The notes under the pieces: generated by a model
The model's input: the letters and a program-made list of their open reading frames with translations, nothing else
Told to the model about the DNA's origin: nothing
Databases searched by the model: none
Position numbers and translations under genes: made by a program
Shown: positions 11,063 through 39,411 of the stretch, one piece after another
Layout of the letters: each line of letters begins with the position of its first letter
Numbering within the stretch: the first letter of the stretch is position 1
Assembly (NCBI RefSeq): GCF_901686465.1
Contig: NZ_LR594487.1
Location: forward strand, 2,989,773 to 3,053,772
Length of the DNA stretch: 64,000 nt
Origin: Halorubrum sp. DM2
Lineage (GTDB): Archaea; Halobacteriota; Halobacteria; Halobacteriales; Haloferacaceae
Direction: 5' to 3'

Positions 11063-11095
11063 TCGGTGACGTAGTGATTGATCTGCTGAATTTGA

Positions 11096-11422
11096 GTGCG
11101 GTGGCGCGTGCCTGCTCGGCCGCGATGCGGCCGAGCAGCATGCGCGAGGGAGTCGACCGGTCGGAGCAACGCGGAGACCGGTCGACGAGGCTGGGGAGGT
11201 GTGAGGTGCGGTGCTGTTGTAAGGTGGGATTCGAAGGGGCAGTTGCGAGGCGGGCGCGGGCGTTCACGAGGGCAAAGCTCTCGTGAGCCAATCAGAACGC
11301 TCCGCGTTCTGATGACGACGCAAGCACCGCAAGGAGAGAGCAGAGCTCTCTCTCGTCATCACGAGATGCCGGAGTCGTCTCAAACGACCCGAGCGTGCGC
11401 CCACCTCGCGGCTGGGGCCTCG
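11096..11422 (+). repeat. Structured repeat R, copy 1 (candidate non-coding RNA)
   Basis: This is a 327-bp GC-rich block starting gtgcggtggcgcgtgcc and ending cgcggctggggc. Hairpins seen are a perfect 12-bp stem at 11112-11123/11127-11138 (loop gat), an 11-bp stem at 11152-11162/11176-11186, and a closing helix 11245-11257/11397-11409 (12 of 13 pairs). Inside the closing helix are short hairpins with three-base loops (cagaacgc/gcgttctg; gagagagc/gctctctc). Two more copies are at 39412-39672 and 40519-40839. Open frames across it are arginine-rich and look non-coding. Confidence 0.6.
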
Positions 11423-11570: not shown

Positions 11571-11588
11571 AGCGGGCCGGGCGCGATT
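11571..11588. other. Left attachment site (attL)
   Basis: The sequence agcgggccgggcgcgatt repeats the tRNA-Lys 3' end found at 30764-30781. The match stops on both sides (a versus g before it; cc versus tg after it), which defines an 18-bp core. It lies between the decayed chromosomal border and the integrase gene. Confidence 0.85.
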
Positions 11589-11662
11589 CCACCAAAGCCG
11601 GTCGCTAACCGTTTCACTGTGCCGTTTTCCGTACATGGGTTGCGTTGTCATAGTCGTGTTGA

Positions 11663-12733
11663 TCATGCCGCGTCAAGTCGTTCAACGTACTCTGTTCGAT
11701 TCTCCATCCGATCGCGGTAGCGTCGCCACCGCTCCTTCTCAGACGCCCAGTCGTAGTGATCCGAGATCGTCTTCACCGACGCGTTGACGCGCTCGGCGAC
11801 GACCTCCGGCGGGATCCCGATGTTCAACTGCCAAGTGATCGAGCCCGTCCGGATCTGATGTGGCGACCGCGACGAGGGACACTTCGCCGCCTCGTGGTAG
11901 TCGACCCAGTCGCAGGTGTCCGGGTCCTTTCCGTGGGGGCAGGTGCCGTGAAGACACGGAATCGTCGCGCGGTAGCTCCACGCTCTGATCGTCGCCTCCC
12001 CGGCCCGACCCCTCGAACTCGCGAGCAACGGCTGTCTGCCGCTGTCGTCGCGGCTGTCGTAGCGATACTGTCCGACGTACTCGCTGAGGATACGCGCGAC
12101 TCGGTCCGGGATTCCGACCGGACGCTCGCCGCGGATCTTGTTCTTCAGCGGCGTCCCCGATTCCGGTCGGTGCCTGAACTCCACCCAACTCTGTTCGTCG
12201 TCATCGTCGAGGCGGATGTAGAGGTCGCGGACGTCGAGCCCGCGGAGCGCGCCCTGGCGGGCACCGGTGTACCACGCGAGTTCGAGGAACGCGTGGCGTC
12301 GACGGGCGCGCTCGGCGTCCGAGTTGCGGTAGTAGTTCAGCAGCGCGAGCGCCGGGTCCCGGTCGAGTGAGACCTCGCTCGACCGCTCGTCGGGATCGAG
12401 ATCGGGGATACGCACCGATTCGTGGAGCCCATCTCCGACGGCGTCGAGCTGTTCGAGGTACTCGACGAACATCCGGAGCGTCCACATCTCGCCTTCGAGC
12501 GTGACCGGCGCGATCTGGCTCGCCCGATGCTCGTAGTAGTCGTCGAAGTCGTAGCCGCGGAGCTCGCCGACCGACTCGATCTGAGCCTCCTCGGCCCACT
12601 CGCGGAAGAGCTTGAGGCGGTACTTCCACGCCTTCACGCTCGACTCCGTCGAGTCGGCGCGCCGGCGACGGAGATACCGGTCGATCGCCTCGCGGACCGA
12701 CAGCGCCGACGGCTCTCGGGAATCCCGGCTCAT
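11663..12733 (-). CDS. Tyrosine recombinase, integrase of the element
   Basis: A 356-residue integrase. An N-terminal SAM-like core-binding domain (about 15-115: SVREAIDRYLRRRRADSTESSVKAWKYRL) precedes a catalytic domain with Arg in TGARQGALRG (near 160), HQIR (His and Arg near 294-297), and a C-terminal DHYDW that should carry the nucleophilic tyrosine. It would integrate and excise the element at tRNA-Lys. It is the last gene of a chain reading from 13642; its ATG overlaps the stop of the 39-residue gene upstream by 4 bp (ATGA). The start at 12733 is fixed by that overlap and by the acidic start MSRDSREPSAL. Confidence 0.9.
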   Translation of the reverse strand: MSRDSREPSALSVREAIDRYLRRRRADSTESSVKAWKYRLKLFREWAEEAQIESVGELRGYDFDDYYEHRASQIAPVTLEGEMWTLRMFVEYLEQLDAVGDGLHESVRIPDLDPDERSSEVSLDRDPALALLNYYRNSDAERARRRHAFLELAWYTGARQGALRGLDVRDLYIRLDDDDEQSWVEFRHRPESGTPLKNKIRGERPVGIPDRVARILSEYVGQYRYDSRDDSGRQPLLASSRGRAGEATIRAWSYRATIPCLHGTCPHGKDPDTCDWVDYHEAAKCPSSRSPHQIRTGSITWQLNIGIPPEVVAERVNASVKTISDHYDWASEKERWRRYRDRMENRTEYVERLDAA

Positions 12734-12849
12734 TCTTCGGGCGGGATCGTCCCGTCGGAGCGCCGGCCGCAGGACGGGCAGGTGTAGCCGTTGACGAAGG
12801 CGTCGACGTGCCGATCGCAGTGGCCGCAGCGCCACAGCAGGTTCGTCAC
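12730..12849 (-). CDS. 39-residue zinc-ribbon protein
   Basis: Starts with GTG and reads MTNLLWRCGHCDRHVDAF..., then TCPSCGRRSDGTIPPEE. Two CxxC knuckles predict one zinc site. The stop overlaps the integrase ATG (ATGA), and its start overlaps the preceding gene's stop (GTGA). These couplings on both sides are the main evidence that such a short frame is translated. It may assist the integrase or bind nucleic acid. Confidence 0.7.
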   Translation of the reverse strand: MTNLLWRCGHCDRHVDAFVNGYTCPSCGRRSDGTIPPEE

Positions 12850-13007
12850 GCGACCACCTCGCCGGAACGGAACAGCGCCGGCGCGATCTCCGCCTTCTGT
12901 CGGGCCATGTCGACGAGCGCGGCGTCGGTCGCGAGCACGCTCGCCTCGACGGCCACCGTGTCGGTCGCGTCGGCCGTCCGGAGCCTGACGGTCGCCCGGC
13001 GGATCAC
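12846..13007 (-). CDS. 53-residue protein, unknown
   Basis: Reads MIRRATVRLRTADATDTVAVEASVLA... and ends RSGEVVA. The frame begins with GTG and overlaps both neighbours by four bases (GTGA on each side). The pattern of alternating Thr, Val and Asp residues suggests beta strands. No family was recognised. Confidence 0.6.
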   Translation of the reverse strand: MIRRATVRLRTADATDTVAVEASVLATDAALVDMARQKAEIAPALFRSGEVVA

Positions 13008-13123
13008 CGCCGGTCCTCCGCGGCCTGCGAGAGCGTCACGTCGTCGAGACGGCCCGCCAGCACGTCACGGGCGTCGAAGCCCCCGCCGTCGCGAGGCGTC
13101 CGAGCGCGGCGCTCGCGGGTCAT
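13004..13123 (-). CDS. 39-residue protein, unknown
   Basis: Reads MTRERRARTPRDGGGFDARD and ends TLSQAAEDRR. The start overlaps the stop of the PadR-like gene by four bases and the stop overlaps the next GTG. The basic N-terminus and the short acidic helix-like tail leave the function open. Support comes from coupling only. Confidence 0.5.
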   Translation of the reverse strand: MTRERRARTPRDGGGFDARDVLAGRLDDVTLSQAAEDRR

Positions 13124-13452
13124 GTGTCGCCCTCCTCGTCGCCGTCGGCCCACGCGTCGTAGTCGGCGAGCGCGTCGCGGGCCGCGTCGGTGAGCGCGTA
13201 GTCGTTCGTTCGGCGGTTGCGCTGGGACTTCGCGACGAAGCCCTTCTCGACGAGCTGGTCGAGGCTGGGGTAGAGGCGGCCGTGGTTCACGTCGACGCCG
13301 TAGTACGTCTCCAGCCCGGACCGGATCGCGGTCCCCTTGCGGTGGTCCTCGCGATCGAGGAATCGAAGAATGTCGCGTTGGAACGCGGTGAGGTCGGCGA
13401 GCCCGCTCGGCTCGCCGGTGTCGCGCCCGTCGCCGTCGACGACGCTACGCAT
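13120..13452 (-). CDS. PadR-like winged-helix regulator
   Basis: A 110-residue protein with a PadR-type DNA-binding domain: LTAFQRDILRFLDREDHRKG, then the recognition-helix region GVDVNHGRLYPSLDQLVEKG and the wing NRRTNDYALTDAARDAL. PadR proteins repress transcription as dimers. It lies upstream of the integrase in the same chain, so it could control excision. The ATG at 13452 (MRSVVDGDG) overlaps the stop of the zinc protein upstream by 8 bp. Confidence 0.85.
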   Translation of the reverse strand: MRSVVDGDGRDTGEPSGLADLTAFQRDILRFLDREDHRKGTAIRSGLETYYGVDVNHGRLYPSLDQLVEKGFVAKSQRNRRTNDYALTDAARDALADYDAWADGDEEGDT

Positions 13453-13642
13453 CGCGCACCCCCGCGGGGTCGCGACGATCGGCGAGCGGCTTCGCCGCGC
13501 ACTCGGCACAGAGACCGCGCCCGGTCTCGGCGTCGAAGCCGTCGGCTCGGTCGCCGCAGATCTCGCAGTCGCCGCCGTTATGTCCGCCCGGTTCGTCTGC
13601 CGTCGTTGGGGGATTCATCCCCCGGAATGCCGTCGTTGGCAT
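13445..13642 (-). CDS. Small zinc-finger protein
   Basis: Up to 65 residues: MPTTAFRGMNPPTTADEPGG..., then CEICGDRADGF and GLCAECAAK. The two CxxC pairs predict zinc binding. The second in-frame ATG at 13618 (MNPPTTADEP, preceded by ggggg) is an alternative start. It is the first gene of the leftward chain 13642 to 11663, reading away from the palindrome at 13768. Confidence 0.7.
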   Translation of the reverse strand: MPTTAFRGMNPPTTADEPGGHNGGDCEICGDRADGFDAETGRGLCAECAAKPLADRRDPAGVRDA

Positions 13643-13767
13643 GGTTCTGTGGTACCATCACAGAACCCGACCCGGCCGGGTGTTGGAGCACCGCGGCCGG
13701 GATTCCTACAGTTTCATCGCGAGCCGAGGCTTCGTCACTCGGGCTCCGTATGTACTCAACATAGGCG

Positions 13768-13787
13768 ACACAACTTATAGGTTGTGT
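13768..13787. promoter_or_regulatory. Operator-like palindrome containing a TATA box
   Basis: ACACAAC and GTTGTGT form a perfect 7-bp inverted repeat around the spacer TTATAG. It lies between the leftward chain (first ATG at 13642 or 13618) and the rightward repressor-like gene (13864). A TATA-like core inside a dyad is what a repressor that blocks TBP would bind, so this may be the element's switch region. Confidence 0.55.
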
Positions 13788-13863
13788 ATGAAATTGATAG
13801 TTCAATAGACTTTCCAAAGTTCTAATCGTGTGTAATAGGTTTCACCGAACCAGTAGTGGAGCC

Positions 13864-14196
13864 ATGAGATATTCTGGGGACTGGATGGCACTCGTGGACG
13901 ACAGGGTGCTCGAATATCTACGCGAGAATGGATCTGGGTCTCCTACAGAGATGAAAGAAGAGGGGCCGATCCGGTATTCGAGTCAATATATCGGTCGTCG
14001 ATGTAAGAAATTGAAAGAAAATGGGCTCGTCCAGCACCTCGGGAACGGAGTCTACATCATCACCGATGATGGCGAAGCCTACCTCGACGGCCGGCTTGAC
14101 ACACAGGAATGGCGCTACATCGACGACGACGCCAGCGAAGTTACTGCCAGTAGCTCCGAAGATATCCCCGGTGAGTCGAACGGGGGCGCGACCTGA
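13864..14196 (+). CDS. phiH1-repressor-like winged-helix protein 1
   Basis: A 110-residue protein: MRYSGDWMALVDDRVLEYL, RENGSGSPTEMKEEG, then IGRRCKKLKENGLVQHLGNG and a wing VYIITDDGEAYLDG. This is the winged-helix pattern of haloarchaeal proteins related to the phage phiH1 repressor. The ATG at 13864 was chosen because the 12 codons before it fall in the promoter area. The next gene begins directly after its stop, so they are co-transcribed. Confidence 0.82.
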   Translation: MRYSGDWMALVDDRVLEYLRENGSGSPTEMKEEGPIRYSSQYIGRRCKKLKENGLVQHLGNGVYIITDDGEAYLDGRLDTQEWRYIDDDASEVTASSSEDIPGESNGGAT

Positions 14197-14532
14197 ATGC
14201 GGTCGTTCGTTCCGTGGATGACGCAGCTCGATGAGCGCATTCTTGAACAGTTAGCCTCCGACGGTGCCGCGACCTCGTGGGAAGTCGGGTTCGAACTCTC
14301 CGGGACCGTGAGTCCTGGTCGAGTGACCGAGCGCTGTAACACGTTGGTCGACGCTGAACTTGTTGAGCGTGAGGACCGCGATATCGGGTTCGATCGCGTC
14401 GAGACCTACTGGTCGATCACGACGTGGGGGCGGCTGTACCTGAGTGAGGAAGTCGATCCCGGACTCGACGTACCTGAGCCGGGTCCTCGACCGCCTCATG
14501 CCACTCGACCGGGTGAGTGGGCCGGGTTCTAG
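14197..14532 (+). CDS. phiH1-repressor-like winged-helix protein 2
   Basis: A 111-residue protein, MRSFVPWMTQLDERILEQLA, GAATSWEVGFELSG, RVTERCNTLVDAELVERED, then a wing SITTWGRLYLSEEVDPG. It belongs to the same winged-helix group as the gene before it, with little identity. Its ATG abuts the TGA of that gene. A second ATG at 14218 (MTQLDERILEQ) fits the family N-terminus equally well. The two probably regulate the element's genes. Confidence 0.8.
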   Translation: MRSFVPWMTQLDERILEQLASDGAATSWEVGFELSGTVSPGRVTERCNTLVDAELVEREDRDIGFDRVETYWSITTWGRLYLSEEVDPGLDVPEPGPRPPHATRPGEWAGF

Positions 14533-14540
14533 TGAACGTA

Positions 14541-15053
14541 ATGTGTCTTGAAGGACTACTCACAGCGATATACGCGGTAGCCACTGATAGTACCACAATT
14601 GGTCTTGTAATTGGGATTGCGACTACGTTCACTTCCGCTATTCTGACATATAATTATCGGCAAAACAAAGAGAAAGAGAAGCTTGTAGGTGCGTTAACCG
14701 CAGAAATTGGGCAAATGAGAGGGATCGAACAGTGCGCTAACTCTATGGAAAAGAGGAATTCAAAACCTTCTGAAGGAGGCCTTGATCCAGATTCTCTTCC
14801 TCCAGGGAAATCAATACCAACAGTGGTGTATGAGTCCAACGCCGGGCGGATTGGTCTACTAGATCAAGAGACTCAAGATAAGTACGTGGAGTTCTACTCA
14901 AAAGTAATCCAATATAAATCAATTATGTCCGCAGCACGCTCTGACGGTGGAGTGCCTGATGCCGATCTAGACGATTTGTACAATTCAATCGAAGAGTTGT
15001 CTGAAACGCGCAAAAGCTTGATTGATGAAGAGCATGGGGATAATCTGGAATGA
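14541..15053 (+). CDS. Unknown membrane-anchored protein, cassette gene A
   Basis: A 170-residue low-GC gene. The N-terminus has one or two hydrophobic segments (LLTAIYAVATDSTTIGLVIG, IATTFTSAILTYNY), then a charged cytoplasmic region with KEKEKLVGALTAEIGQM and a helical C-terminus (DLDDLYNSIEELSETRKSLI). In-frame GTG codons at 14532 and 14517 are alternative starts. It is the first of three consecutive low-GC genes on this strand. No family was recognised. Confidence 0.7.
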   Translation: MCLEGLLTAIYAVATDSTTIGLVIGIATTFTSAILTYNYRQNKEKEKLVGALTAEIGQMRGIEQCANSMEKRNSKPSEGGLDPDSLPPGKSIPTVVYESNAGRIGLLDQETQDKYVEFYSKVIQYKSIMSAARSDGGVPDADLDDLYNSIEELSETRKSLIDEEHGDNLE

Positions 15054-15148
15054 ACACATGGGTTGAGGAGATTATTTATGGAAGGAAGGATCACATCCTA
15101 GCAAGCGATGTTCCATCCCCGATCCACTATGTCTGAGGGGCATATACC

Positions 15149-16240
15149 ATGAGTTCCCCGTATGACTTCTTGGACGCAGTTGATCGTGATTTTTCCTCTG
15201 CTGACGATTTCGTGTCTTATCTTGAGAAGGATTATAATCTCGGGGAAGTTCCAGAGAGTGTCAACTTTATCGGTGCGATAAACGACTGCCGGTCAGAGAA
15301 AGCCTTCATTGACTCGTTGGGTAGTCACTTTGATCGTGTAGATTCAACGGGAGACCTCTATCTTCTTAAGGGAGATACTGGCGAGGAATACGTCCCGTAC
15401 TACGTTTATGTAGATGACGAGTTTCCTGTATTTATCACTACAGCAAATATCACTGACGAGATGCCTCCGACAATCAATTCATATCTTCAACAGAGTAAGG
15501 ATGTCGGGAGGTTCTGGCTTTCAAAAAGACAGATGGAAGCGCTCCGCGAAGAGCTAATTAGTAGATACGACGGAGATATTCTTATTCCGTTTTTCAGTGC
15601 CAAGAGAGGTATGTTCTCGGAAATTGGAGCCAGAAAAAGACCGGGAACTAAAAGACGAATTACTTACTATGCGGATGATGGTCTAGAGACATATCGGGAG
15701 ATGAGAATGGAATACGGTGTTCTCCCAACCATTCTTGAATTTGAACGACCCAATCACTTCAAATTTAGAGTGAAGGATAAAGGAGTGTTTGTCCACGAAA
15801 GTGGAAGTGTTCAGGAACTTTGGCGGACCCTGAAAAAGGAGACTGAGCACAAGTCACGTATAAAGGAGTACATCGACACTGGCGAAGCTACAGAGCCAGA
15901 GAGTACGGTATTCCAAAATAAGACAATCTCTGTCAGCCGTCCTTGGGGAATAAAAGTTGATCCGGGACTACACAGAGATCATCTGGACGGTTTTAAATCT
16001 CACCTCCAAAATGAGGAGTTAGAATTCGGAGTTTCTGAGTACAACTCCTACCCAGAGATACCAAGCTTCGATGCTGAGCTAATTGACCACAGTTCCTACG
16101 AAACTACGAAGCTCATGACAAAAGAGGATACTATACAGGTATATCCTCGTGAGCTAACCGATGTTGATCAGTCCTTTAGAATCTACAATTTCGTTAGCGA
16201 TCACTTCGGACCGAAGTGTGAACCGGTAGCAGTAGAATGA
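15149..16240 (+). CDS. Unknown protein, cassette gene B
   Basis: A 363-residue soluble acidic protein starting MSSPYDFLDAVDRDFSSADDF. It has no membrane segment and no motif I can name. Aromatic-rich beta-like stretches (YVPYYVYVDDEFPVFITTAN) and basic patches (SAKRGMFSEIGARKRPGTKR) stand out. The gene is low-GC and AT-codon-rich compared with the chromosome. Its stop overlaps the next gene's ATG by four bases, so the two products are probably made together and may interact. Its place beside a restriction enzyme suggests, but does not show, a defence role. Confidence 0.75.
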   Translation: MSSPYDFLDAVDRDFSSADDFVSYLEKDYNLGEVPESVNFIGAINDCRSEKAFIDSLGSHFDRVDSTGDLYLLKGDTGEEYVPYYVYVDDEFPVFITTANITDEMPPTINSYLQQSKDVGRFWLSKRQMEALREELISRYDGDILIPFFSAKRGMFSEIGARKRPGTKRRITYYADDGLETYREMRMEYGVLPTILEFERPNHFKFRVKDKGVFVHESGSVQELWRTLKKETEHKSRIKEYIDTGEATEPESTVFQNKTISVSRPWGIKVDPGLHRDHLDGFKSHLQNEELEFGVSEYNSYPEIPSFDAELIDHSSYETTKLMTKEDTIQVYPRELTDVDQSFRIYNFVSDHFGPKCEPVAVE

Positions 16241-17352
16241 TCGGTCCGTCTGAGTTTGATGAAGAGAGTTATCTCGGAACTCTCAGCAAAGGGGATCGCA
16301 AGCGGTTTGACAAACTCTACCGAGAAAAGTGGCATAAGATCGATCCAAGTCGAGCGAAGACTCTATTTCGACGGGATTACAGAGATAAACATCAGGAAGA
16401 ACAGAAGCTCTTTTCTGCTGTAGTGGATGGTTTTCCGCCTGACGAAAGTACCACCAGCACAGAAAGCGGCTATGAAACAACGCTCGTAAACCCCTTATAT
16501 GAGTGTCTTGAGCAAACAGCAGATGTACTCCTAGCGAAGCCAACCTATCACGATGTACACTTGTGCTTTGTTTGCTGTGAGATTGGTGGAGAAAACAGGA
16601 TAGAGTGGGTTGAACGAGTTAACCGGATCAAACAAATCTTTGATCAGGAAGAACATCGCCGTGAACTCATGGAACAAATTGAATGTGATGACCTTGATCT
16701 TGGCAGTATACAATACGCCACTGTATCTCGGCCGCAGGATCTGGTTGAGATTGACTTCGATTTACTTGAAGCGACCTTAGATGTCGATAACTACGTTATT
16801 CTCGAACATGTTGAAGAAGAAAGATTATTGACTCCAAAAAAGGGAGGAATTGCGTCTGAGCTTCTGAGGACTGAATTTGAGGATGGGTTAGACTACTCCC
16901 GAGCAGATGTCACAGAGATAAAATACCGTCTTAATGAACATCCAATCATCCCTCTGAAGCAAACTCTTCTAGAGGTCATCGTTAGTGGTATACAAGATGG
17001 AACGGACCAGCATCCACGGGAGTTTGAGAGAGAGGATTTTCACGAAAAGTATGATGCTAGCCTCGATCTAGGAGTGCGAACTGAAGGTCGGGAAGAAGTA
17101 ATCGGAGATAATGTCGATGAACTCCTAGACGAAGCAAAGACGACAGATCTTGTATTCCAAAACTCAGAAGAGATCAACACAGAACGAGAATTCAGGTTTC
17201 GGACATCAAACGCTGTTCCTGAAGATATCAAAGATACTGTTGAACAGAAGTATACCCAGTTCTATGCGAAGCGTCAACGCGGCCAACTTGCGTTTGAGAG
17301 GGCAGAGCGAGACTTCGAAGAGGAAGATAGCGATTTAGGGGACTTCGAATGA
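16237..17352 (+). CDS. Unknown protein, cassette gene C
   Basis: A 371-residue acidic soluble protein translationally coupled to gene B. The centre reads YHDVHLCFVCCEIGG followed by NRIEWVERVNRIKQIF, a strand-strand-helix arrangement with an acidic residue and a Gly turn that is reminiscent of PD-(D/E)xK nuclease folds, although the usual lysine is not evident. A second recognisable stretch is DDLDLGSIQYATVSRPQDL. The C-terminus is a charged helix (ERAERDFEEEDSDLGDFE). The function is unknown; a nuclease-like role is speculative. Confidence 0.75.
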   Translation: MIGPSEFDEESYLGTLSKGDRKRFDKLYREKWHKIDPSRAKTLFRRDYRDKHQEEQKLFSAVVDGFPPDESTTSTESGYETTLVNPLYECLEQTADVLLAKPTYHDVHLCFVCCEIGGENRIEWVERVNRIKQIFDQEEHRRELMEQIECDDLDLGSIQYATVSRPQDLVEIDFDLLEATLDVDNYVILEHVEEERLLTPKKGGIASELLRTEFEDGLDYSRADVTEIKYRLNEHPIIPLKQTLLEVIVSGIQDGTDQHPREFEREDFHEKYDASLDLGVRTEGREEVIGDNVDELLDEAKTTDLVFQNSEEINTEREFRFRTSNAVPEDIKDTVEQKYTQFYAKRQRGQLAFERAERDFEEEDSDLGDFE

Positions 17353-17442
17353 CTATAGTCATAGCATTCTCGATCTGACGCTCCCCTGTAATCCCTCCAA
17401 TCCTGTTGTCCTTCGTCAGCGAGTTGAGCGATCGATACTACC

Positions 17443-20400
17443 TCACTTTCCTACGGCTTCCTCAACGATCTCGATCTCCTCGTCGGTGAGTCCGTACAAC
17501 TCGTAGACAATCTCGTCGATCAGGGCGTCGGTCTTCGCGATCTTCTGGTCGAGTTCCTCGGCGCGCTCGACCGTATCGAGGTAGTTCGCCAAGTCGTCGG
17601 CCACGTCGTCGACGTCGGGCAACTCGATCGCCTTCAACCGGTCGACCAGCGAGTTCGTCTTCGTCGCTTGTTCGTAGAACCCAGCAATCTCCTCGTCGAC
17701 GGCGACCGGCACGAAGTGCTCGATCAGGTCCGCCTCCGTCTCCGTGAGGTCCGTGATCCGGAACGCAGGCAGGAGGTCCGTCTCGGTGTAGCCCCACCGA
17801 TCCGTTTCGTAGGCATCCTCGTCGTCGGGCTTGTAGCGAGCGGTGGCCTTGATCAAGACTGTGTTAGGGGACTCGCGATCGACGGTGGCAGTGCCAATTC
17901 GGAGGTTCTCGTAAGAGGTCGATGTTTCATGTAACATCGACTCAGGGTTGCTCGCAGGCTGAAAGAGGCCAATATCCGTTATTCCCGTGTTCCCTACGTA
18001 TGGTCGCAGATACTGTAATAAGTTCAGATTCAGCTGCTTCCGATCCGACTTATATTCGCTCAATGCCCTTGCTAGTTCTCCAATAAGCTCAAGCACACCA
18101 GAGGGAGGGTCCTCGACTAACTCAGAAGAACTACTTACAAACTGTTCAGTATCAATCTCAACACCTGTGCTAACTATCGGAAGTTTCCGAAGGTGGACAG
18201 GCTTCACCTCATACTCATCAAATACCCAGTTGAAGTACCTGTCCAGAAGCTCAGAGTTTAATATCCCCAAAAGCGTGTCTAGTCTGTAGTCCTGATCGTC
18301 ATCCAGAACCACATTTGATACACGGTTGAGATTATAATATTCATTCTCATCTAGCGTTGCGACCAATTTCCGATTCAGGCCTCTTCGCGTGCGTTGTAAC
18401 AATATTTTATCATTCGTAAAGATATACTCTGGAGGAAGACTACGTGCTTTGTCACCATACTCTTCGATGAGTTCTGGGTCATACTGGATCCAGCGACCAT
18501 CCCAAGAAAGTTCGTATCTACCGATGTTCCTTCCCGACACCATTTTGTGGGAATTCTTGTTTTCCTTTTCCTCTGAAACCATAACATCCCGAATATATCC
18601 AGTGTTGATTCCGACCGTCGTATAGGTTATATCTCCAAGATTAGTTTGGCATTTATCCATTTTTTCGACAATTTCTCTCCGCTTTGGGGATAAACTAATT
18701 CCAAATACGGAGTCATCTGCTTCCCTGAATTTAGACTGTTCAATGCTATAATCTTCAGAGATATCTATGCGATCCCCGTTTTCACGATTGAATCTGATTC
18801 TGGTATCGCCTTCATCATTAGATGGAATAAGATGTTGGATCACCGATTCTAATGTCACACTCTTGAATACGCTCTGTCCGAGGTAGAATATTTCAGATAT
18901 TTTTGATTTATCCAGTATTACGTTTCTGAAGTTGGAAAACTTGTCTGCTGACAAGTACGTATTAGGGATAAGATATGATATATGGCCTCCTTTCCGACAG
19001 TATTCTATCGCCCTTTCTGTGAAGTATATATAAAATTCGAAGTTATATTGGTGTGACTGGTATTTTGATTCATAGTAAGACTTTTTCGATTTAGATGGGA
19101 TCTTGCGATACCCATATGGCGGGTTCCCTACGACAATGTCAAATCCTGCTTTACTCCTCTTTTCGCCCTCTAAGTCGAAGAATACCTCGGGGAACTCCAG
19201 TTCCCAGTGGAAGAAGTCCTGCTCCGCCGCCGTCGCCTGCGCCGCCGTGAACCAGTCCTCACCCGCGATCTCCGCCCAGTCGTCCTCGTCTTCGATCGCA
19301 CCCGCCATCTGCTCGTACGCGTCGTCGGGTACGTCGCAGCCGAACTCCTCGGCGGTGTGGACGTTCGCCAGCTCGAAGAGGCGCTGATACAACGGATCCT
19401 CGCGGATCTCGTCGTACAACTCCTCCATCGACTTGACGCTCTCTAAGGAGTCGTTGTCGAACGCGAGCAGGTCTGACATCAGCTCCATCACGTGTTCGAG
19501 CGTGTCCTGCCGGACTCTCGCGAACGCTTGCGTGAGCGTGAGCTGGCCGCCGTTCTCCTCGGTGTCGTCGGAGAGAACTTCTGTGATATCGCTGCCGACC
19601 AACGAGTTCCCCGCCTTGAGGTGGTGATCGAGGAAGGCGAGCGGCTGGTCCGCCGCGAGCGTTTCGAGCCACATCGAGAGCTTCGACAGCTCGACCGCCA
19701 TCCCGTTCAGGTCGACGCCGTAGATCACCTCCTTCGAGATATCACGGCGGATGTCCTGCTCGTCGAACGACTGGATCTCCTGTTCGCGAACGACGCTCAT
19801 CACCTGCTCGGTGAGGTATCCCGTCGCCTTCGTCAGGAAGTGGCCTGATCCCATCGCGGGATCGAGGATCGTCAGGTCCAGCATCGCGTCGTAGAACTCG
19901 ACAAAGTACTCCGAGTCACTCGGTTCGAGCCCCTCCTCGCGGAGTTCCTCGTCGATCTCGTCGATCAGCGGGTCAACCGTCTCCTCGACGATGTACGTCA
20001 CGACGTAGTCGGGCGTGTAGTATGCGCCCGTGGCCTTCCGCTCGCCCTCGTCGTTGACGACGTACAGCCCGCCCTCTTCTACGACCTCAACCGCGTCCGC
20101 GACCGACACCTCGTCGCCCGGCTTCCACACCTGCCCGCCGTCCTCCGAGACCGCGGCGACCCCCTCCGGCCCCGCGATTCGGAACTCGTGTTCGAGCAGC
20201 CCCTCGTAGATCGATCCGAGATGGCGCGTGTCGAGGTCGGCGTAGTCCGCCGGGACGTACTCGCCCTCGTCGTTCTCCGTGGTCGACAGCCGGAATATGA
20301 CCTCCGCGATCGCCGGGTCCGAGACCTCGTTCTCCGCGAGGAACTCGTGGTCGTCGTGGTCGAACAGCCCCCCGTTGTACGGCGGGATGTCGAGTTCCTC

Positions 20401-21498
20401 TTCGCCCTCGTCGATCAGTTCGAACAGCCGCGTGAGCCGGTTCCAGATCGTCGTGGAGAACGTGCTGTACTCGTCGCGGAACACGGCACCCGACTCGACG
20501 TCGCCGCCCTCGGCCGTCTCGATGATGTCGCTCCGAACCTCTTCGAGGCTGAAGTTCTCGTGATACTCCGCGTTCGCGCTCGGCTCTTCCGGGTCGATCA
20601 GCCCGCGCGACTCCGCGTAGAGGACGAACATCAACCGGTACAGCAGCACGAGCGACTGCTCTTTCAGTTCGGCCCGCGCCGACTCGTCTTCCGGGTCGAT
20701 CCCGAGGTCGTTGTTCTCGACGAAGCCCTTCCCGAGGACCCGCAGCGCAGTGAACACGTTGTCTTGGAGGTCCTCACCGAGTTCCTGCGCGGCGGTCTCG
20801 GACTCCGACCAGACGGTTTCGAGGAACGAGCTTCCGCCGATCTCGATGAACGCCTCGGGCCGGAAGAAACAGTAGAAGTACTTGAACTGCTGGAGGTCCC
20901 CAGATTCGAGCAGCTCCGGTAGGTCGACCTCGTAGTAGGTCTGTGTCTCGTAGTCTTTGGTCCCGTAGAGCCGCCACTTCTTTCCGTCAGTGAGGATCCC
21001 CCAGTCGAGATCAGTCGGCGTCCGTTCGAGGTAGTACTTTACCTGGTGTGAGGCGTCGCGATAGGGCCGTTCGTCGCTGAATCGCTTCTCGAAGTCGTGG
21101 CCCCACTGTTTGGCTTCGAGCAGCGCGGACGCTCCCGAGAACATCCCCTCTCGGTCGCCCTCGCGCTTCCGGTCAGCAGCCTTGTACCGATCTTCCTTCG
21201 ACTCGTAGAGGAGCCGGTCGACATACCCGCCGCCGCCCGGAAGCGTTCCCTCGGAGATCGTGTCGAACCCGAGGATCTCCAGGACCTCACCGATCCACTG
21301 GTCGATCAGTTCGTCCTCGCCGTGAGAGGCGACGTAGTCGCCCTCCAGTTCCCAGAGTTCGCGGAGATCTTCGAACGCCGCTTCGGCCTCGTCGTCGGAT
21401 TCCCAGTCGTCGAGGTCGGCAACGCGTTCGTCGAGATAGTAGCCAGAGAAGAGACTGGAGTTTCGGTAGGGACCACTCCCGAGCGTCGCTTGGCTCAT
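17443..21498 (-). CDS. Type IIG restriction-modification enzyme (Eco57I-like)
   Basis: A 1351-residue single-chain enzyme. The N-terminal third holds a nuclease-like region with LIDQWIGEVLEILGF and ALLEAKQWGHDF (a PD-(D/E)xK-type ExK near residue 130). The adenine methyltransferase core has motif I DPAMGSGHFL near 545, VYGVDLNGMAVELSKLSMWL, and the catalytic NPPY near 791. The target-recognition region follows, then helical C-terminal DUF-like sequence. It should methylate and cut its own site, so no partner is required. About 17930-19170 (residues 776-1189) is clearly low-GC while both ends are GC-rich, which suggests a swapped recognition module. Its stop is convergent with the unknown cassette. 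Confidence 0.87.
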   Translation of the reverse strand: MSQATLGSGPYRNSSLFSGYYLDERVADLDDWESDDEAEAAFEDLRELWELEGDYVASHGEDELIDQWIGEVLEILGFDTISEGTLPGGGGYVDRLLYESKEDRYKAADRKREGDREGMFSGASALLEAKQWGHDFEKRFSDERPYRDASHQVKYYLERTPTDLDWGILTDGKKWRLYGTKDYETQTYYEVDLPELLESGDLQQFKYFYCFFRPEAFIEIGGSSFLETVWSESETAAQELGEDLQDNVFTALRVLGKGFVENNDLGIDPEDESARAELKEQSLVLLYRLMFVLYAESRGLIDPEEPSANAEYHENFSLEEVRSDIIETAEGGDVESGAVFRDEYSTFSTTIWNRLTRLFELIDEGEEELDIPPYNGGLFDHDDHEFLAENEVSDPAIAEVIFRLSTTENDEGEYVPADYADLDTRHLGSIYEGLLEHEFRIAGPEGVAAVSEDGGQVWKPGDEVSVADAVEVVEEGGLYVVNDEGERKATGAYYTPDYVVTYIVEETVDPLIDEIDEELREEGLEPSDSEYFVEFYDAMLDLTILDPAMGSGHFLTKATGYLTEQVMSVVREQEIQSFDEQDIRRDISKEVIYGVDLNGMAVELSKLSMWLETLAADQPLAFLDHHLKAGNSLVGSDITEVLSDDTEENGGQLTLTQAFARVRQDTLEHVMELMSDLLAFDNDSLESVKSMEELYDEIREDPLYQRLFELANVHTAEEFGCDVPDDAYEQMAGAIEDEDDWAEIAGEDWFTAAQATAAEQDFFHWELEFPEVFFDLEGEKRSKAGFDIVVGNPPYGYRKIPSKSKKSYYESKYQSHQYNFEFYIYFTERAIEYCRKGGHISYLIPNTYLSADKFSNFRNVILDKSKISEIFYLGQSVFKSVTLESVIQHLIPSNDEGDTRIRFNRENGDRIDISEDYSIEQSKFREADDSVFGISLSPKRREIVEKMDKCQTNLGDITYTTVGINTGYIRDVMVSEEKENKNSHKMVSGRNIGRYELSWDGRWIQYDPELIEEYGDKARSLPPEYIFTNDKILLQRTRRGLNRKLVATLDENEYYNLNRVSNVVLDDDQDYRLDTLLGILNSELLDRYFNWVFDEYEVKPVHLRKLPIVSTGVEIDTEQFVSSSSELVEDPPSGVLELIGELARALSEYKSDRKQLNLNLLQYLRPYVGNTGITDIGLFQPASNPESMLHETSTSYENLRIGTATVDRESPNTVLIKATARYKPDDEDAYETDRWGYTETDLLPAFRITDLTETEADLIEHFVPVAVDEEIAGFYEQATKTNSLVDRLKAIELPDVDDVADDLANYLDTVERAEELDQKIAKTDALIDEIVYELYGLTDEEIEIVEEAVGK

Positions 21499-21817
21499 GT
21501 AATATCAAATCCACCCGTCAGCGTGATTAAATAGATGGCGGAGAAAATCACATATTCTGAACTGTCGCGAGCCGGTCCCGAGTCGAAGCCCCCGTACAGC
21601 GATTAGAACCGATCCTGCGGTGCCGCCCCGGACGTAGGGGGGATCTCCCCCTTCGCATCTACTCCGAAGCGCGCGTGTGCGTAGGGTCCGGCGCGAGAGC
21701 GATCGACACTAATTCCGATTCACCCGTTCCACGAATCTGGATATCTGTGACACCAAATACACTAGAAAAACGCATTAATTTCGTGCGTTCAAGTGCTGCC
21801 AGCCTGAGACTGAACCG
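21499..21817. other. Intergenic region, 319 bp, divergent promoters
   Basis: No gene is supported. The box gattaaatag at 21525-21534 lies about 30 bp upstream of the restriction-enzyme ATG (minus strand) and fits its TATA element. The run cgcattaatttc near 21770-21781 could be the TATA element for the AbrB-like gene at 21818. Confidence 0.55.
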
Positions 21818-22075
21818 ATGTCTGGTGAGATTCGGAAGCTACGAGATCTCGGCAACGGAAGCGGCGGGATGGTCATCCCGAAGGAGACGCTCCGGAGCTG
21901 GGGTCTCATTGACGACGACGATGGCGTAGTCGACGCACACCTCATGATCTCTCAGTCTGACGAGGCGATCAGCGTCAGACCGATCGGCATGAACGTCGGC
22001 GGTTCCGACGAGGAACCCTCGAAACCGAAGCGCGCCGGCGGTCGATCTATTCCCGGTTCGAAAGCCGATCTGTAG
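21818..22075 (+). CDS. AbrB/SpoVT-like DNA-binding protein
   Basis: An 85-residue protein: MSGEIRKLRDLGNGSGGMVI, PKETLRSWGLIDDDDGVVDA, then a beta strand and a basic tail (KPKRAGGRSIPGSKADL). The first 50 residues form a swapped-hairpin AbrB fold, which binds DNA as a dimer and is common in antitoxins and element regulators. No toxin-like partner follows directly. Confidence 0.75.
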   Translation: MSGEIRKLRDLGNGSGGMVIPKETLRSWGLIDDDDGVVDAHLMISQSDEAISVRPIGMNVGGSDEEPSKPKRAGGRSIPGSKADL

Positions 22076-22086
22076 CGGTCCTCGGC

Positions 22087-22168
22087 CCCTCCCCCTCCCG
22101 TCACTTTAGGTACGCGCGCGCAGGGGTCAGTCTGTGCGTCCTCGCGAGGAATCCGCTACCGGCCGATC
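22087..22168. repeat. Diverged direct repeat, left copy
   Basis: The block begins cccctccccctcccgt and ends accggccgatc. It aligns end to end with 23951-24033 with many substitutions. The two copies bracket the nested insertion elements. A duplication by the insertion events, or a shared promoter of small transcripts, would both explain it. Bases 22169-22246 after it show nothing recognisable except the target copy agtgattt at 22239. Confidence 0.5.
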
Positions 22169-22246
22169 CTGAGCGATCGATATGTCGGCGATCACGGGAT
22201 CTGTGACCAACTCGGTCAGCTGTTCCCGGCTCGTAACGAGTGATTT

Positions 22247-22735
22247 GGCTTTGTTGAAATCCTCAGAAGTTGATAGTTTTGTGTCTCCAATCGCTCAGTA
22301 CAGTTATTCGGTTGCTCGATACGCCTGACCGCCACGAACGATTCCCAGTACTGCGAGGAGGGCATACAGAACAGGCATATTTACGAAACCGAGATTCAGA
22401 TAGCCGAAAACGGCGAACGCAAGTGAGAGAACTCCAACAACGATCATAATGATTGAGTACACTTTCTGAAACTTCAAGAGCAGGAACACACCAGCGACGG
22501 CGATTAACGAGAAGAGGGCGCTGAGGAAATACGAATCGAGGTAGACAGAAACAAAAACTGCTCCGAAGAAAGCAATAACGATGAGCCCCACCCTATAGAG
22601 ATTCCTCCGTAATTCCTGATCGATCACGTTGAGAGAGCTATATTCCAAGGAGAAACAGTTTATCCTTTTCGCAATTCTCATCGACCGGCTGTTTCAGGCG
22701 AGAATGTGTCTGAAGAAGAGGATTTCAACAAGGCC
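22247..22735. mobile_element. IS6-like non-autonomous element 1 (489 bp)
   Basis: The left end is ggctttgttgaaatcctc and the right end, read on the other strand, is ggccttgttgaaatcctc. The element is flanked by the 8-bp direct repeat agtgattt at 22239-22246 and 22736-22743. Eight-base duplications and ends of the form GGC-T-TGTTG are known for the IS6/IS26 family. There is no transposase gene; the interior carries one membrane-protein gene (22304-22681). It must have been moved by a transposase elsewhere. Confidence 0.7.
22304..22681 (-). CDS. Four-helix membrane protein carried by element 1
   Basis: A 125-residue protein with about four hydrophobic segments (GLIVIAFFGAVFVSVYLD, ALFSLIAVAGVFLLLKF, SIIMIVVGVLSLAFAVFGYL, MPVLYALLAVLGIV). 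It resembles small uncharacterised haloarchaeal membrane proteins. The ATG lies exactly where the element's right terminal region ends (22682), so that end may supply the promoter. The related end at 23061 also leads into an ATG, but that copy stops after five codons (MRVAC). Confidence 0.7.
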   Translation of the reverse strand: MRIAKRINCFSLEYSSLNVIDQELRRNLYRVGLIVIAFFGAVFVSVYLDSYFLSALFSLIAVAGVFLLLKFQKVYSIIMIVVGVLSLAFAVFGYLNLGFVNMPVLYALLAVLGIVRGGQAYRATE

Positions 22736-22811
22736 AGTGATTTGGCTCTGTTGAAATCCTCTTCTTCAGATATATTCTTACCTGATACAGCCGGTAGAAT
22801 GAACCTGCGTA

Positions 22812-22973
22812 TCAGTCGACAATTCGTCTCAATAGCAACAGCACTACGCAGAATGAAAGGAGTACTAGGCTTTCGCTGAAGGAAAGAAAGGACGTAAGAT
22901 TGAGATATCCGATAACAGTGAGAAATAGAGTCAGTACCAGATAAGCCGTCTCGAATTTCGTTAAATCAAGCAT
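22812..22973 (-). CDS. 53-residue membrane protein
   Basis: Reads MLDLTKFETAYLVLTLFLTV, IGYLNLTSFLSFSESL, then VLLSFCVVLLLLRRIVD. It has two hydrophobic helices and a basic C-terminus. An AT-rich box aattatatg lies about 20-30 bp upstream of the ATG on its strand. No relative was recognised. Its sequence IGYLNL resembles FGYLNL in the membrane protein of element 1, hinting at shared origin. Confidence 0.6.
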   Translation of the reverse strand: MLDLTKFETAYLVLTLFLTVIGYLNLTSFLSFSESLVLLSFCVVLLLLRRIVD

Positions 22974-23060
22974 GTATAACATGGCAGTTGACCCCTACAT
23001 ATAATTTCAGTTCTTCGCTGAATGTATCCAGCTAGTGGATCTCGGCATGAGGTCCATTTC

Positions 23061-23115
23061 GGCTCTGTTGGAATCCCATTCTTCAAATAAATTATTGACT
23101 GAAATAGCCGGTTGA
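23061..23115 (+). repeat. Solo right-type IS6-like end with truncated gene start
   Basis: ggctctgttggaatccc starts a region matching the right ends at 22735 (minus strand), 22744 and 23729. Directly inside it, ATGAGAGTTGCG parallels the start ATGAGAATTGCG of the membrane gene at 22681 but runs into a stop after five codons. This is the remnant of another copy of element 1. Confidence 0.55.
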
Positions 23116-23234
23116 TGAGAGTTGCGTGCTGACCGCACGTCCATCTGGTAGATTTGTATGCTAATCTGCGAGCGTACTAGATACGGGGATTAATTTAGTA
23201 TCTGCCACTCATGATTCTAGAATAGCGATACAAA

Positions 23235-23729
23235 ATGGGCAAAGATAACGAAAACAGTCGTGAAAATCTGAGGCAGCAGGTGGTTGGGCAGAAACGAGAT
23301 ATGCTCTTGGAGAGAGTCTACGACACCACAAAGTTCGCAGATCTCGACAAAAAGATACGCGAACGAGGATACGAAGGGACAGAACCCATCGTTCAGCGTG
23401 GCATACGTTCGGAGGATCCATTTGACTTCTATCAAGTTATCCGCCACTATACTAACGAGGACAACCGAGCGATAGCCACGTGGATCGGCCTAGACCCTAA
23501 AAAAGTCGACAGCGGTGAGGTATCGTATGATATGATAGAGGAGTTGGACGAGATTCAGGACCTAGAAATGGATACACATGAACTATACCCGCTCATTGTT
23601 GCTTTTCTAAATGATGAGGGAATCGGGTTTCGAGTAACCAGTACTGGTATTGAAGAAAATGAGTTAGATAACAGTATTCTTCGAAACGCACTCAAAGAAT
23701 CGTTCCAGACATCCAAAGAAGAAGAATAG
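23235..23729 (+). CDS. Unknown 164-residue protein
   Basis: Starts MGKDNENSRENLRQQVVGQK and is hydrophilic and helical throughout; a segment DPFDFYQVIRHYTNEDNRAI is followed by IATWIGLDPKKVDSGEVSYD, which looks like a helix-turn-helix-like or small all-alpha domain. Its TAG stop overlaps the first base of the insertion end at 23729. The gene is AT-rich like the other cargo here. No function can be assigned. Confidence 0.6.
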   Translation: MGKDNENSRENLRQQVVGQKRDMLLERVYDTTKFADLDKKIRERGYEGTEPIVQRGIRSEDPFDFYQVIRHYTNEDNRAIATWIGLDPKKVDSGEVSYDMIEELDEIQDLEMDTHELYPLIVAFLNDEGIGFRVTSTGIEENELDNSILRNALKESFQTSKEEE

Positions 23730-24093
23730 GCTCTGTTGAAATCCCTTCTTTAGACAGATTCTCGCCTGAAGCAGCCGATCACTGAGGAGTGTATTTTGAG
23801 CGATTCGTGAGTTCCCTGTATTGACCGATTGAAAGCGTGAAAACTATCAACTACTGAGGATTTTGGCAGAGCCAGTGAGTTCCTAGAGAGATGTTCCGCT
23901 CGATGGGGCAAAACGGGACGGCTGTCGATCGCTAGATACGCCCCGATCTCCCCCTCCCCCTCCCGTTACCTTATATACGCGCGGGCGTGGCTCAGTCTGA
24001 GAGTCGCGGCGAGAAATTCTGTACCGGCCGATCACAGGGAGGGGGTAATCCGGCCGATCAAGAGATATCGAAGAGTGATCCCGGCGAGAGTTG
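23730..24093. other. Non-coding stretch, 364 bp, element ends and repeat
   Basis: It contains the right-type end 23729-23783, the left-type end 23820-23873 in reverse orientation, the target copy agtgagtt (23874-23881) and the diverged direct repeat 23951-24033, which includes a strong TATA-like ttatata at 23971. No gene is supported. Confidence 0.55.
23951..24033. repeat. Diverged direct repeat, right copy
   Basis: It begins cccctccccctcccgt and ends accggccgatc, as does 22087-22168. Here the centre reads accttatatacgcgcg, a good archaeal TATA element that is changed in the left copy (actttaggtacgcgcg). It lies just downstream of the short recombinase gene. Confidence 0.5.
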
Positions 24094-24705
24094 CTACACC
24101 CGGTCGATGTGGTCGTAGACGCGTTCGGTCGTCTGGATACTCGCGTGTCTGAGCCGGTTCCGCACGTCGTAGAACGTGTTCCCCTCCTCGACGTTCAGCA
24201 TTCGATACGCGACGCTGTGGCGTAGTGTGTGCGGCGTCACGTCTTCCGGCTCGCCGCGCCCGGTGAGCGTCATCGGACGCACGTCCGCGGCGACTGCGGC
24301 GGCTCGAACCACGTTTCGCACCGACTCGGTCGACATCCGTTCCGCCTGTCGCGAGGGCCACAGCGCCGGCGACTCCTTCCACCGCCCGCCGAGGTACATC
24401 CGGAGCGTCCGCACGGTCTCGTCGGCGAGCCCGATCTCGGTGTAGCTCGGCGATCGGTCGGTCGGGTAGTCTTTCTGGAGCCCGGCCGGAAGCGCGATCA
24501 CGCCGTCGTCGAGGTCGACGTGGTCCTCGACGTCGAGCGCGATCGCCTCGCTCACCCGGAGCCCCGTGTCGTACAGCGTCGCGATCAGCGCGTCGTTGCG
24601 CGTAGCAAGGTACGTCGCGCTCGCTTCGACGGTTGCGCTCCGCATCGCGTCGACTTGGTCCGGCTTCAGCCAGACGGTCGCTTTCTCTTCAGTTTGGGTT
24701 TCCAT
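24094..24705 (-). CDS. Short XerD-like tyrosine recombinase
   Basis: A 203-residue protein that is essentially a catalytic domain. All active-site residues are present: Arg50 (TGLRVSEA), Lys78 (LQKDYPTDR), His159 and Arg162 (TPHTLRHS), His187 (LRHAS) and Tyr197 (ERVYDHI). The N-terminal core-binding domain of XerD or the integrase at 11663 is missing, with only about 20 residues before the first helix. It may resolve dimers, invert DNA or work on cassette insertions, rather than integrate the element. The ATG at 24705 (METQTEEKATV) follows an AT-rich promoter stretch with gtttataag near 24731. Confidence 0.87.
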   Translation of the reverse strand: METQTEEKATVWLKPDQVDAMRSATVEASATYLATRNDALIATLYDTGLRVSEAIALDVEDHVDLDDGVIALPAGLQKDYPTDRSPSYTEIGLADETVRTLRMYLGGRWKESPALWPSRQAERMSTESVRNVVRAAAVAADVRPMTLTGRGEPEDVTPHTLRHSVAYRMLNVEEGNTFYDVRNRLRHASIQTTERVYDHIDRV

Positions 24706-24763
24706 AATTCGGTGTGTTTCACAGGATGTCGTTTATAAGTGGTACAGCGGAGGGAACGGCTCA

Positions 24764-24793
24764 GTTTGGGATTCTGTAACAAGAATCCCAAAC
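24764..24793. terminator. Perfect 12-bp hairpin between operon end and recombinase promoter
   Basis: gtttgggattct (24764-24775) and agaatcccaaac (24782-24793) pair perfectly around the 6-base loop gtaaca. It lies about 50 bp after the last stop of the 30692-24842 operon, so a terminator or 3'-end stabiliser is the simplest reading. A recombination or protein-binding site for the adjacent recombinase is the alternative. Confidence 0.5.
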
Positions 24794-24841
24794 TCGTCTT
24801 AGGCGTTGACACACCTCCGATCAACTCTCTCGGTCTGTTGC

Positions 24842-25432
24842 TCACTCATGCTGTCCTCCGTCGGTCGCGACCGGCACCGTCCGCCCGCCGAACCGGTCGA
24901 GCCCTGTCTGTTGCTCCGTCTCGCCACCGTCCGGCTGCCGGAGGTCTTTGTCAATCGCGCGCCGGAGCCACCCCATCTGCTCGCCGATACCGCCGAGGTC
25001 CGCTTCGGCGAACACGTCGACCACGTTGAGCTGCGGCCCGAGCGGCTCGAAGGCGATCTCGTCCTCGTGGGCGATCGCGTCCTGATAGATACTGGCGTAG
25101 TCGCGGCCGGCGAGTAGGAGCACCTCGTCTGCGTGCGAGTGGTCGGTAAACGGCGACCGGAGTGACCTGCTTACTTCTTCGACCAGCACTTGCCGGTCGC
25201 AGTCGTCGAGCGTGGTGTCGTACGGCTCGATCGTCCGCTTCGACCAAACGAGTCCGTGTTCGGCGCTCAGAATGACGACGCGGTCGGCGAAGTGTTCTGC
25301 GTACTCCAGCTTGAGCGCGAAGTAGTTGCTCGTGTAGAGTTCCCTCGCCTGCGAAGCCTCGTCGCGCTTCGCGTTTCCACAGCCGATGACGGCGATCGTC
25401 TGCGTGGTCTCGTCGGTGGATCGATCGCTCAT
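24842..25432 (-). CDS. DUF6884-like protein
   Basis: A 196-residue protein with TIAVIGCGNAKRDE near the N-terminus, then ARELYTSNYFALKLEYAEHF and VVILSAEHGLVWSKRTIEPY. That is the pattern of the DUF6884 group (related to YaaA-like and queuosine-type DNA-modification-associated proteins) found on phages and plasmids. The Cys and the SAEHGL segment are probably functional. It is the last gene of the long minus-strand operon; its ATG overlaps the stop of the C2H2 gene by four bases. Confidence 0.72.
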   Translation of the reverse strand: MSDRSTDETTQTIAVIGCGNAKRDEASQARELYTSNYFALKLEYAEHFADRVVILSAEHGLVWSKRTIEPYDTTLDDCDRQVLVEEVSRSLRSPFTDHSHADEVLLLAGRDYASIYQDAIAHEDEIAFEPLGPQLNVVDVFAEADLGGIGEQMGWLRRAIDKDLRQPDGGETEQQTGLDRFGGRTVPVATDGGQHE

Positions 25433-25908
25433 GCCGAACCACCTGCCCACTTCGCGAGCGTGTGCTGTTCTTCGGGTTCTGGCACCGCGTAGTCCATCTT
25501 GTCCTCCGTATCGATCTCGTGGACATCGGCGAGATGCCATCCGAACGCGTTCCCCGAGGGGAACCGCTCGTCACACACCTTACAGCGGAACGGCTCGGAG
25601 ATCCCGATGACTACCGGCTTCGGTTCCCCGAGCTTGTCTCGGCGGACGTAGTGCCACCCACTCCACTGTGGGTGTCCTACGATCGAATCGACGAGTTTCG
25701 ACCGCAGAACACCGTCTATCTGATAGAGCCCCCGTTTCCAGTGGTCGAGGTTTTCGGAGTAGTGGAGGTGTTCGAGACGGCCGTGTGGCCCGCGGAACAG
25801 GTACGTATCGCTCGACGTCCACTCGTCGATGACTCGCACACCGACGCTACTGGTGAGGGTGTCGAGGATCGTATCTGCGAGACGATTGTCTCCGGATCGA
25901 TCAGTCAT
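25429..25908 (-). CDS. C2H2 zinc-finger protein
   Basis: A 159-residue protein. The N-terminal 100 residues have a beta-rich fold of unknown type (VRVIDEWTSSDTYLFRGPHG, GLYQIDGVLRSKL). The C-terminal part has a classical C2H2 finger, CKVCDERFPSGNAFGWHLADVH. Such fingers are common in haloarchaeal viruses and plasmids and usually bind DNA. The ATG at 25908 overlaps the stop of the gene upstream by 8 bp. Confidence 0.75.
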   Translation of the reverse strand: MTDRSGDNRLADTILDTLTSSVGVRVIDEWTSSDTYLFRGPHGRLEHLHYSENLDHWKRGLYQIDGVLRSKLVDSIVGHPQWSGWHYVRRDKLGEPKPVVIGISEPFRCKVCDERFPSGNAFGWHLADVHEIDTEDKMDYAVPEPEEQHTLAKWAGGSA

Positions 25909-26487: not shown

Positions 26488-26490
26488 CGG

Positions 26491-30692: not shown

Positions 30693-30724
30693 AGCACCAC
30701 CTCCGAGCTACCAGCTAATCGGCC

Positions 30725-30763
30725 GAAAAATGTAAATAGAAGGTCTCTATCTTTTATTAACGG
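30725..30763 (-). promoter_or_regulatory. Promoter of the element's long operon
   Basis: This 39-bp AT-rich stretch on the minus strand contains gttaataaaag and ctatttacattttt, both TATA-like, followed by a leader of about 30 bp with the ribosome-binding site ggaggtg before the ATG at 30692. It abuts attR, so integration leaves it intact. Confidence 0.55.
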
Positions 30764-39400: not shown

Positions 39401-39411
39401 TAGGAACGGTA

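Follow-up and report, generated by a model that had tools for sequence, protein, structure and literature searches.

A coupled gene pair of haloarchaeal mobile elements with an eroded PD-(D/E)xK motif as a candidate virus-defence module

The cassette and the element that carries it

What is the function of three low-GC genes, here called A, B and C, that face a restriction enzyme gene in Halorubrum sp. DM2? We analysed these genes in the window, by which we mean the whole stretch of 64,000 nucleotides under study, and searched for their relatives in haloarchaeal genomes, in the rest of the phylum and in phage records. An earlier note on this DNA had described a low-GC set at 14541-17352, and the frames, the order and the composition were confirmed, with a GC content of 0.44, 0.44 and 0.45 for A, B and C (GC3 0.39, 0.44 and 0.40) as against 0.657 for the window. 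The coupling of the second and third genes by an ATGA, which the note had also reported, is an overlap at 16237-16240. Its description of the first gene as membrane-anchored agrees with a hydrophobic segment at the N-terminus of A and of all 19 relatives scored, two of which score weakly. An upstream GTG at 14517 is a possible alternative start for A. Most loci that carry A (A+ loci) have an A-B gap of 72-134 bp, often with a TATA-like box inside, and the TTATTTAT in the gap of the window is possibly a separate promoter for B and C.

As the earlier note had found no motif that it could name, so searches of Pfam, NCBIfam and PADLOC gave no match above cut-off for A, B or C, and PHROGs yielded one clear family for each (Table 1). 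Judged by their sequence relatives, the three frames are real genes and more than chance ORFs, since they have homologues in many genomes and the order of B and C is kept at every locus. The B alignment contains many invariant residues (R164, R169, Y173, D177, G178, Y189, G190 and P193), and despite these the protein fell into no recognisable family in Pfam, PADLOC or NCBIfam. An AlphaFold model of B made from four input sequences was poor (pLDDT 37).

The cassette sits within an integrated element of about 19.2 kb (11588-30764) that has its own integrase and is inserted at a tRNA-Lys gene; a tRNA-Ser was ruled out as the insertion site by the location of the att repeat. The element also holds a second integrase gene of 203 aa (24094-24705) and several genes of plasmid or virus type, and no virion genes were recognised in it. 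The stretches 11095-11198 and 39411-39522, about 28 kb apart and one on each side of the element, share two identical blocks, of about 20 and 57 bp. Within it, a direct repeat, GGCTCTGTTGAAATC, at 22744-22758 and 23729-23743 flanks about 1 kb and looks like an insertion-sequence end. Winged-helix gene pairs homologous to the one upstream of the cassette lie directly upstream of B at two other loci (L062 and L074). The restriction gene is on the minus strand and thus converges with the cassette, as the earlier note had it, and is separated from C by 90 bp. We rejected it as a functional partner, as type IIG models match one of 103 neighbours of A+ loci, the window's own. On a reading of the sequences, a second IIG-like gene adjoins B-C at one other locus among those sampled (L061). 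The IIG gene of the window is apparently no more than a bystander.

Table 1. Features of the cassette and the integrated element (positions in the window)
Feature	Position	Strand	Description
Distal att repeat	11571-11588		AGCGGGCCGGGCGCGATT; identical 18 bp recurs at 30764-30781; adjoins the integrase
Tyrosine recombinase (integrase) of the element	11663-12835	-	phrog_1 integrase, 1.9e-21; XerC/D-like
Winged-helix regulator 1	13828-14196	+	Weak wHTH matches; upstream of the cassette
Winged-helix regulator 2	14197-14532	+	Stops 8 bp before gene A
Gene A	14541-15053	+	170 aa from ATG; predicted membrane-anchored protein; phrog_33818, 4.7e-13
A-B gap	15054-15148	+	TATA-like TTATTTAT at about 15072-15079
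Gene B	15149-16240	+	363 aa; conserved partner protein; phrog_24372, 1.9e-99
Gene C	16237-17352	+	371 aa; PD-(D/E)xK-family protein by homology, degenerate E-x-K; phrog_35712, 6.9e-61
Type IIG restriction-modification enzyme	17443-21498	-	Eco57I 3.6e-35, TaqI_C 2.1e-16; PADLOC REase_MTase_IIG
Proximal att repeat	30764-30781		Within tRNA-Lys (30765-30839, - strand), at its 3' end

The B-C pair and the state of its nuclease motif

Whole-genome searches detected B in 55 of 391 genomes of the class and C in 51 of 381. C directly follows B in all 66 B-containing loci, and the spacing is mostly -4 to +3 bp. Near-duplicates are present among the 66, in that the Harhisp1 virus is counted along with its host genome and one plasmid along with the genome it belongs to, and genome G304 contributes four copies. 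At some loci C is split, and at L072 B is broken. A phylum-wide search added eight pairs, again with C beside B in 8/8; seven of these lie outside the class (L134-L140) and one is haloarchaeal (L141). At L142 (5650-7882) the remotest B-like gene (1e-7) precedes a gene for a 331-aa protein whose HPDFLLYDGEICLLVEVKQ again shows a canonical pattern, D..E-V-K, though the C profile missed it. Another weak B-like match, at L143, lacks a follower of this kind and may be due to chance. Scanning viral contigs with B alignments yielded no relatives, and of the scans of genome contigs the first yielded none and the second three.

The earlier note had treated the three genes as one set. The triplet does recur, at 23 places in 20 of about 390 sampled haloarchaeal genomes and in the Harhisp1 virus record, and the possibility it had raised that the genes never co-occur elsewhere did not materialise. 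However, the triplet was ruled out as the conserved unit, since A is missing from most B-C loci. The unit is the B-C pair, with A confined to one clade: strict A homologues (E < 1e-50) occupy exactly the 23 B-C loci that were scored as carrying A in the whole-genome search, and every one lies directly upstream of B. The idea that A is unique to the B-C system was discarded as well, since membrane-anchored A-like proteins with the motif T-x-VYE-x-N...LGLL...FYS form a large family whose members stand alone. Counting A proper, such proteins turned up in 98 of the 381 haloarchaeal genomes sampled, two of them in the genome of the window (G000:C1:991708-992085 and 1181646-1181774). The weaker ones stand alone, with no fixed partner in the 14 loci examined (L120-L133). 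Overall, B-C is a real and widespread pair that appears in the searched libraries only as uncharacterised PHROGs, and in the open-access literature we found no paper on it beyond the hypothetical genes of Harhisp1.

The core LCFVCCEIGG of C had been likened in the earlier note to PD-(D/E)xK nucleases. The likeness held in that this stretch corresponds by homology to the PD-(D/E)xK core, since it aligns with the canonical D..E-(A/C)-K of sister clades; it failed in that the E and the K are lost here. The C proteins of these clades read NFDFLLWNLDGSVIFGEAKSS or NADAIFCNPDRNLALIVECKTS at this site, and the D, the E and the K are invariant in both alignments, as D...E-A-K in clade A9 (n=11 sequences) and as D...E-C-K in clade A8 (n=9). 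About 13 residues separate the D from the E-(A/C)-K, and an acidic E stands upstream in a PLxE motif. A profile of the window clade, built from four sequences, aligned over nearly its full length with the ECK clade A8 at an hhalign probability of 99.7%. Six of the seven pairs from outside the class also have the D..E-x-K, and L136 is the exception. By these sequence relations C belongs to a PD-(D/E)xK nuclease family. The window protein reads ADVLLAKPTYHDVHLCFVCCEIGGE at the motif site, where D96 is kept and E-x-K has become C113-C114-E115. Across the A+ clade the D position is D or E, the E-x-K is replaced by C/S/V/I/F/A-C-E/N/R/I/C/K, and the middle cysteine (C114) alone is invariant within the E-x-K motif. 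The C protein of the window is probably catalytically dead, or its site has moved beyond what the alignment shows, and as it is in just this A+ clade that the site has degenerated, C is probably not the cutting effector in the window.

As a test for the alpha-beta-beta-beta-alpha-beta core of the superfamily, the AlphaFold model of C, again from four sequences, was poor (pLDDT 47), and its best Foldseek hit was not significant (E 0.42); Cap4, AspBHI and Kpn2I stood among unrelated names at the top, and we give them no weight. Profile searches of the PDB gave no usable match to a solved nuclease or other solved relative, and canonical C matched the PADLOC model HEC-02B weakly (E 0.007).

Is the erosion of the motif linked to the rest of the locus? 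We classed loci according to the state of E-x-K and tallied the counts by hand. Among those with degenerate C, 25 have A or a pentapeptide-repeat protein as a partner and 5 have neither, versus 0 with and 37 without among those with intact C (about 37 loci); a Fisher test on these counts gives a p of 9e-14, too strong a figure given the kinship among the loci. Degenerate C is found in the A+ clade, at seven pentapeptide loci (L002, L068, L071, L072, L095, L096 and L141) and at L070, L074-L076 and L136. The pentapeptide-repeat protein, of about 490-510 aa, is encoded beside B and divergently transcribed in these 7 loci, with the two starts roughly 80-100 bp apart where both genes are intact. 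Pfam confirmed the repeats in the four proteins scanned (L002, L072, L095 and L068). Hydropathy counts and inspection revealed C-terminal hydrophobic segments, which on our reading may resemble a two-span channel; the Pfam scan of these proteins returned no channel domain. Neither partner was seen at L074-L076 or L136, nor at L070, where no gene is called 5' of B near the contig end.

Concatenated B+C sequences from 57 pairs gave a tree that unites the A+ loci in a single clade (support 0.95) and puts the pentapeptide loci on a different branch, where relatives with intact C are found as well. The link between partner and motif loss thus amounts to two lineages. A tree of B alone does not set the A+ clade apart from L059-L061, where C is intact. 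Both kinds of third gene pair exclusively with degenerate C, and the association is strong by locus count but comes from no more than two independent lineages.

Genomic neighbourhoods and what they argue for

We compared the surroundings of the loci with PADLOC families, where the matches at 1e-10 or better serve as a contrast and not as a count of systems, since the families are redundant. There were 100 matched families for 103 neighbours of 19 A+ loci and 312 for 107 neighbours of 19 EAK-clade loci, versus 14 for 100 control proteins from 20 random stretches of the same genome set, drawn from large contigs only. Adenine methylase genes, counted by eye, lie within 20 kb of B-C in at least seven cases versus about 2 expected (p about 0.004). 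The earlier note had proposed looking for relatives in defence islands, and several loci do lie in defence neighbourhoods or proviruses, but the A+ loci L048 and L049 are among ordinary chromosomal genes; other loci are in proviruses or beside integrases. A Pycsar cyclase and PycTM lie beside L037, on the opposite strand and with another gene between. The outcome which that note had said would count against it, homologues solely as virion or replication genes, is not what these neighbourhoods contain.

The main rival to a defence function is a toxin-antitoxin or addiction module, in which C (or A) would be the toxin and B its neutraliser, stabilising the plasmid, provirus or other element that carries them. 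An obligate, tightly coupled pair on mobile elements would suit such a module, as would the occurrence of the cassette in proviruses and plasmids and the RelE/CopG pair that forms the next operon in Harhisp1. However, B and C, at about 360-370 aa, are large for a classical pair, the nuclease residues have been lost in whole clades while the pair was kept, which would be unexpected of a toxin, and the neighbours are rich in PADLOC families. We consider an addiction module rather unlikely.

The same neighbours raise a second alternative, namely that B-C is an accessory nuclease or sensor of adjoining restriction or BREX-related systems and no independent system. An HKD+Snf2 helicase and a DUF499 gene lie beside A+ loci, with the former cited here for one such locus; DUF499 is noted beside L058 and DUF499/DUF1156 genes beside L036. 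On sequence reading, genes for type I R-M-like subunits adjoin L134 and L135, two of the seven loci outside the class, and McrC-like and DUF1156-like genes adjoin L064. There is also published precedent in standalone PD-(D/E)xK nucleases reported as auxiliary effectors in restriction and BREX-related systems (PMC12839542). Against an accessory role, the neighbour is hardly ever the same from one locus to the next, and no such system lies near many of the loci (Harhisp1, L048 and L049 among them), which makes it an unlikely explanation.

Harhisp1 (MW344767) is the sole homologue of A, B and C in 50,697 phage records. This pleolipovirus provirus of Haloarcula hispanica is induced and circularises (Dyall-Smith et al. 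2021, PMC7911831). Its genes HarHp1_110, HarHp1_105 and HarHp1_100 have the order of A, B and C, are 37, 43 and 32% identical to them and, unlike the cassette as read here, are annotated as hypothetical proteins only. They are adjoined by an Orc1-type Rep, by the RelE/CopG pair and by a pentapeptide-repeat gene. In genome G304 the cassette occurs four times (L043-L046), with pleolipovirus-like genes around it: twice on the main contig and once each on two further contigs of 17-20 kb. One of the four C genes is broken. The single viral record and the four G304 copies would fit a viral accessory set that aids infection, through counter-defence or through regulation of pleolipovirus or provirus genes, and spreads by integration. 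The record is, however, one of 50,697, not what a pleolipovirus core gene would give, and the triplet lies outside the Harhisp1 block annotated as similar to HHPV3. Moreover, no virion gene was noticed near most loci, and relatives in other classes of the phylum lie beside type I R-M-like genes. A viral accessory role is on this evidence quite improbable. A helper in replication, partition or transposition of integrative elements is scarcely credible: integrases are frequent and an Orc1-type Rep adjoins C in Harhisp1 and L068, but no replication or integrase partner is constant, the canonical nuclease clades have defence-rich surroundings, and Pfam and PHROGs give no replication family.

Proposed function and comparison with known systems

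Taken together, the data suggest that the cassette is a new kind of virus defence, in partial agreement with the earlier note, which had inferred an anti-phage or anti-plasmid system from a sensor/effector set with a membrane part. The obligate B-C pair would be the core of a mobile module against viruses or plasmids, or for superinfection exclusion. The ancestral form, with D..E-x-K intact, would recognise or bind the invader through B and cut DNA through C. In the form found in the window C, having lost the E and the K, would most likely partner B in regulation or binding. The effector would then be the membrane-anchored A, gained by the window clade, which would cause damage or send a signal at the membrane once B-C is triggered. 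That B-C senses and a membrane protein has replaced the dead nuclease in such a module is the reading we favour, and we hold it to be evenly poised between right and wrong. We infer the defence function, B as sensor and A as effector, and A need not be the effector, since A-like proteins occur alone elsewhere with no fixed partner.

More tentatively, and leaning towards doubt, B-C may be a hitherto undescribed immune core of archaea in which the nuclease fell silent in two or more lineages. In each case the loss would have gone along with the gain of an unrelated partner whose hydrophobic segments probably span the membrane (A with its single span, or the pentapeptide-repeat protein). Such a core would have changed from a DNA-cutting system into one that attacks the membrane, and would retain the dead nuclease for sensing or as a scaffold; inactive restriction-enzyme folds have been proposed as sensors in BREX (PMC12839542). 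If the proposal is right, about one in seven sampled haloarchaeal genomes has an unnamed immune module that is absent from PADLOC-DB 2.0.0 and Pfam. The loci would also offer natural comparisons for a change of effector, between a live nuclease, a dead nuclease with A and a dead nuclease with the pentapeptide protein, and Harhisp1 in Haloarcula hispanica is a laboratory virus and host for an immediate test.

How does B-C compare with systems already described? The sister clades of C share the D..E-(A/C)-K and the PLxE acidic residue with the PD-(D/E)xK superfamily, whereas the window protein has neither the E nor the K and no sequence match to a solved nuclease. As nuclease cargo of a haloarchaeal pleolipovirus there is a precedent in HHPV4I, a restriction enzyme carried by HHPV4 and proposed to exclude rival viruses (PMC10101028). 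It differs from C in being a single SRA-wH-HNH protein, m6A-dependent and of another nuclease type. Hachiman, in the part of its published description drawn on here, consists of a HamA nuclease and a HamB helicase (PMC12278908), and to that extent it resembles the two-gene layout of nuclease plus sensor proposed for B-C. However, no library identified B as a helicase, neither B nor C matched Hachiman in Pfam or PADLOC, and with no helicase in the pair and no match to a HamA or HamB model we do not assign B-C to that system as so described. The cassette operon also encodes no nucleotide cyclase, by Pfam and PADLOC searches of A, B and C, and B has no cyclase match, which sets it apart from CBASS and Pycsar. 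These two systems combine one sensing core with interchangeable nuclease or membrane effectors, and it is this arrangement, a single core with effectors that can be swapped, that B-C may share with them as an idea.
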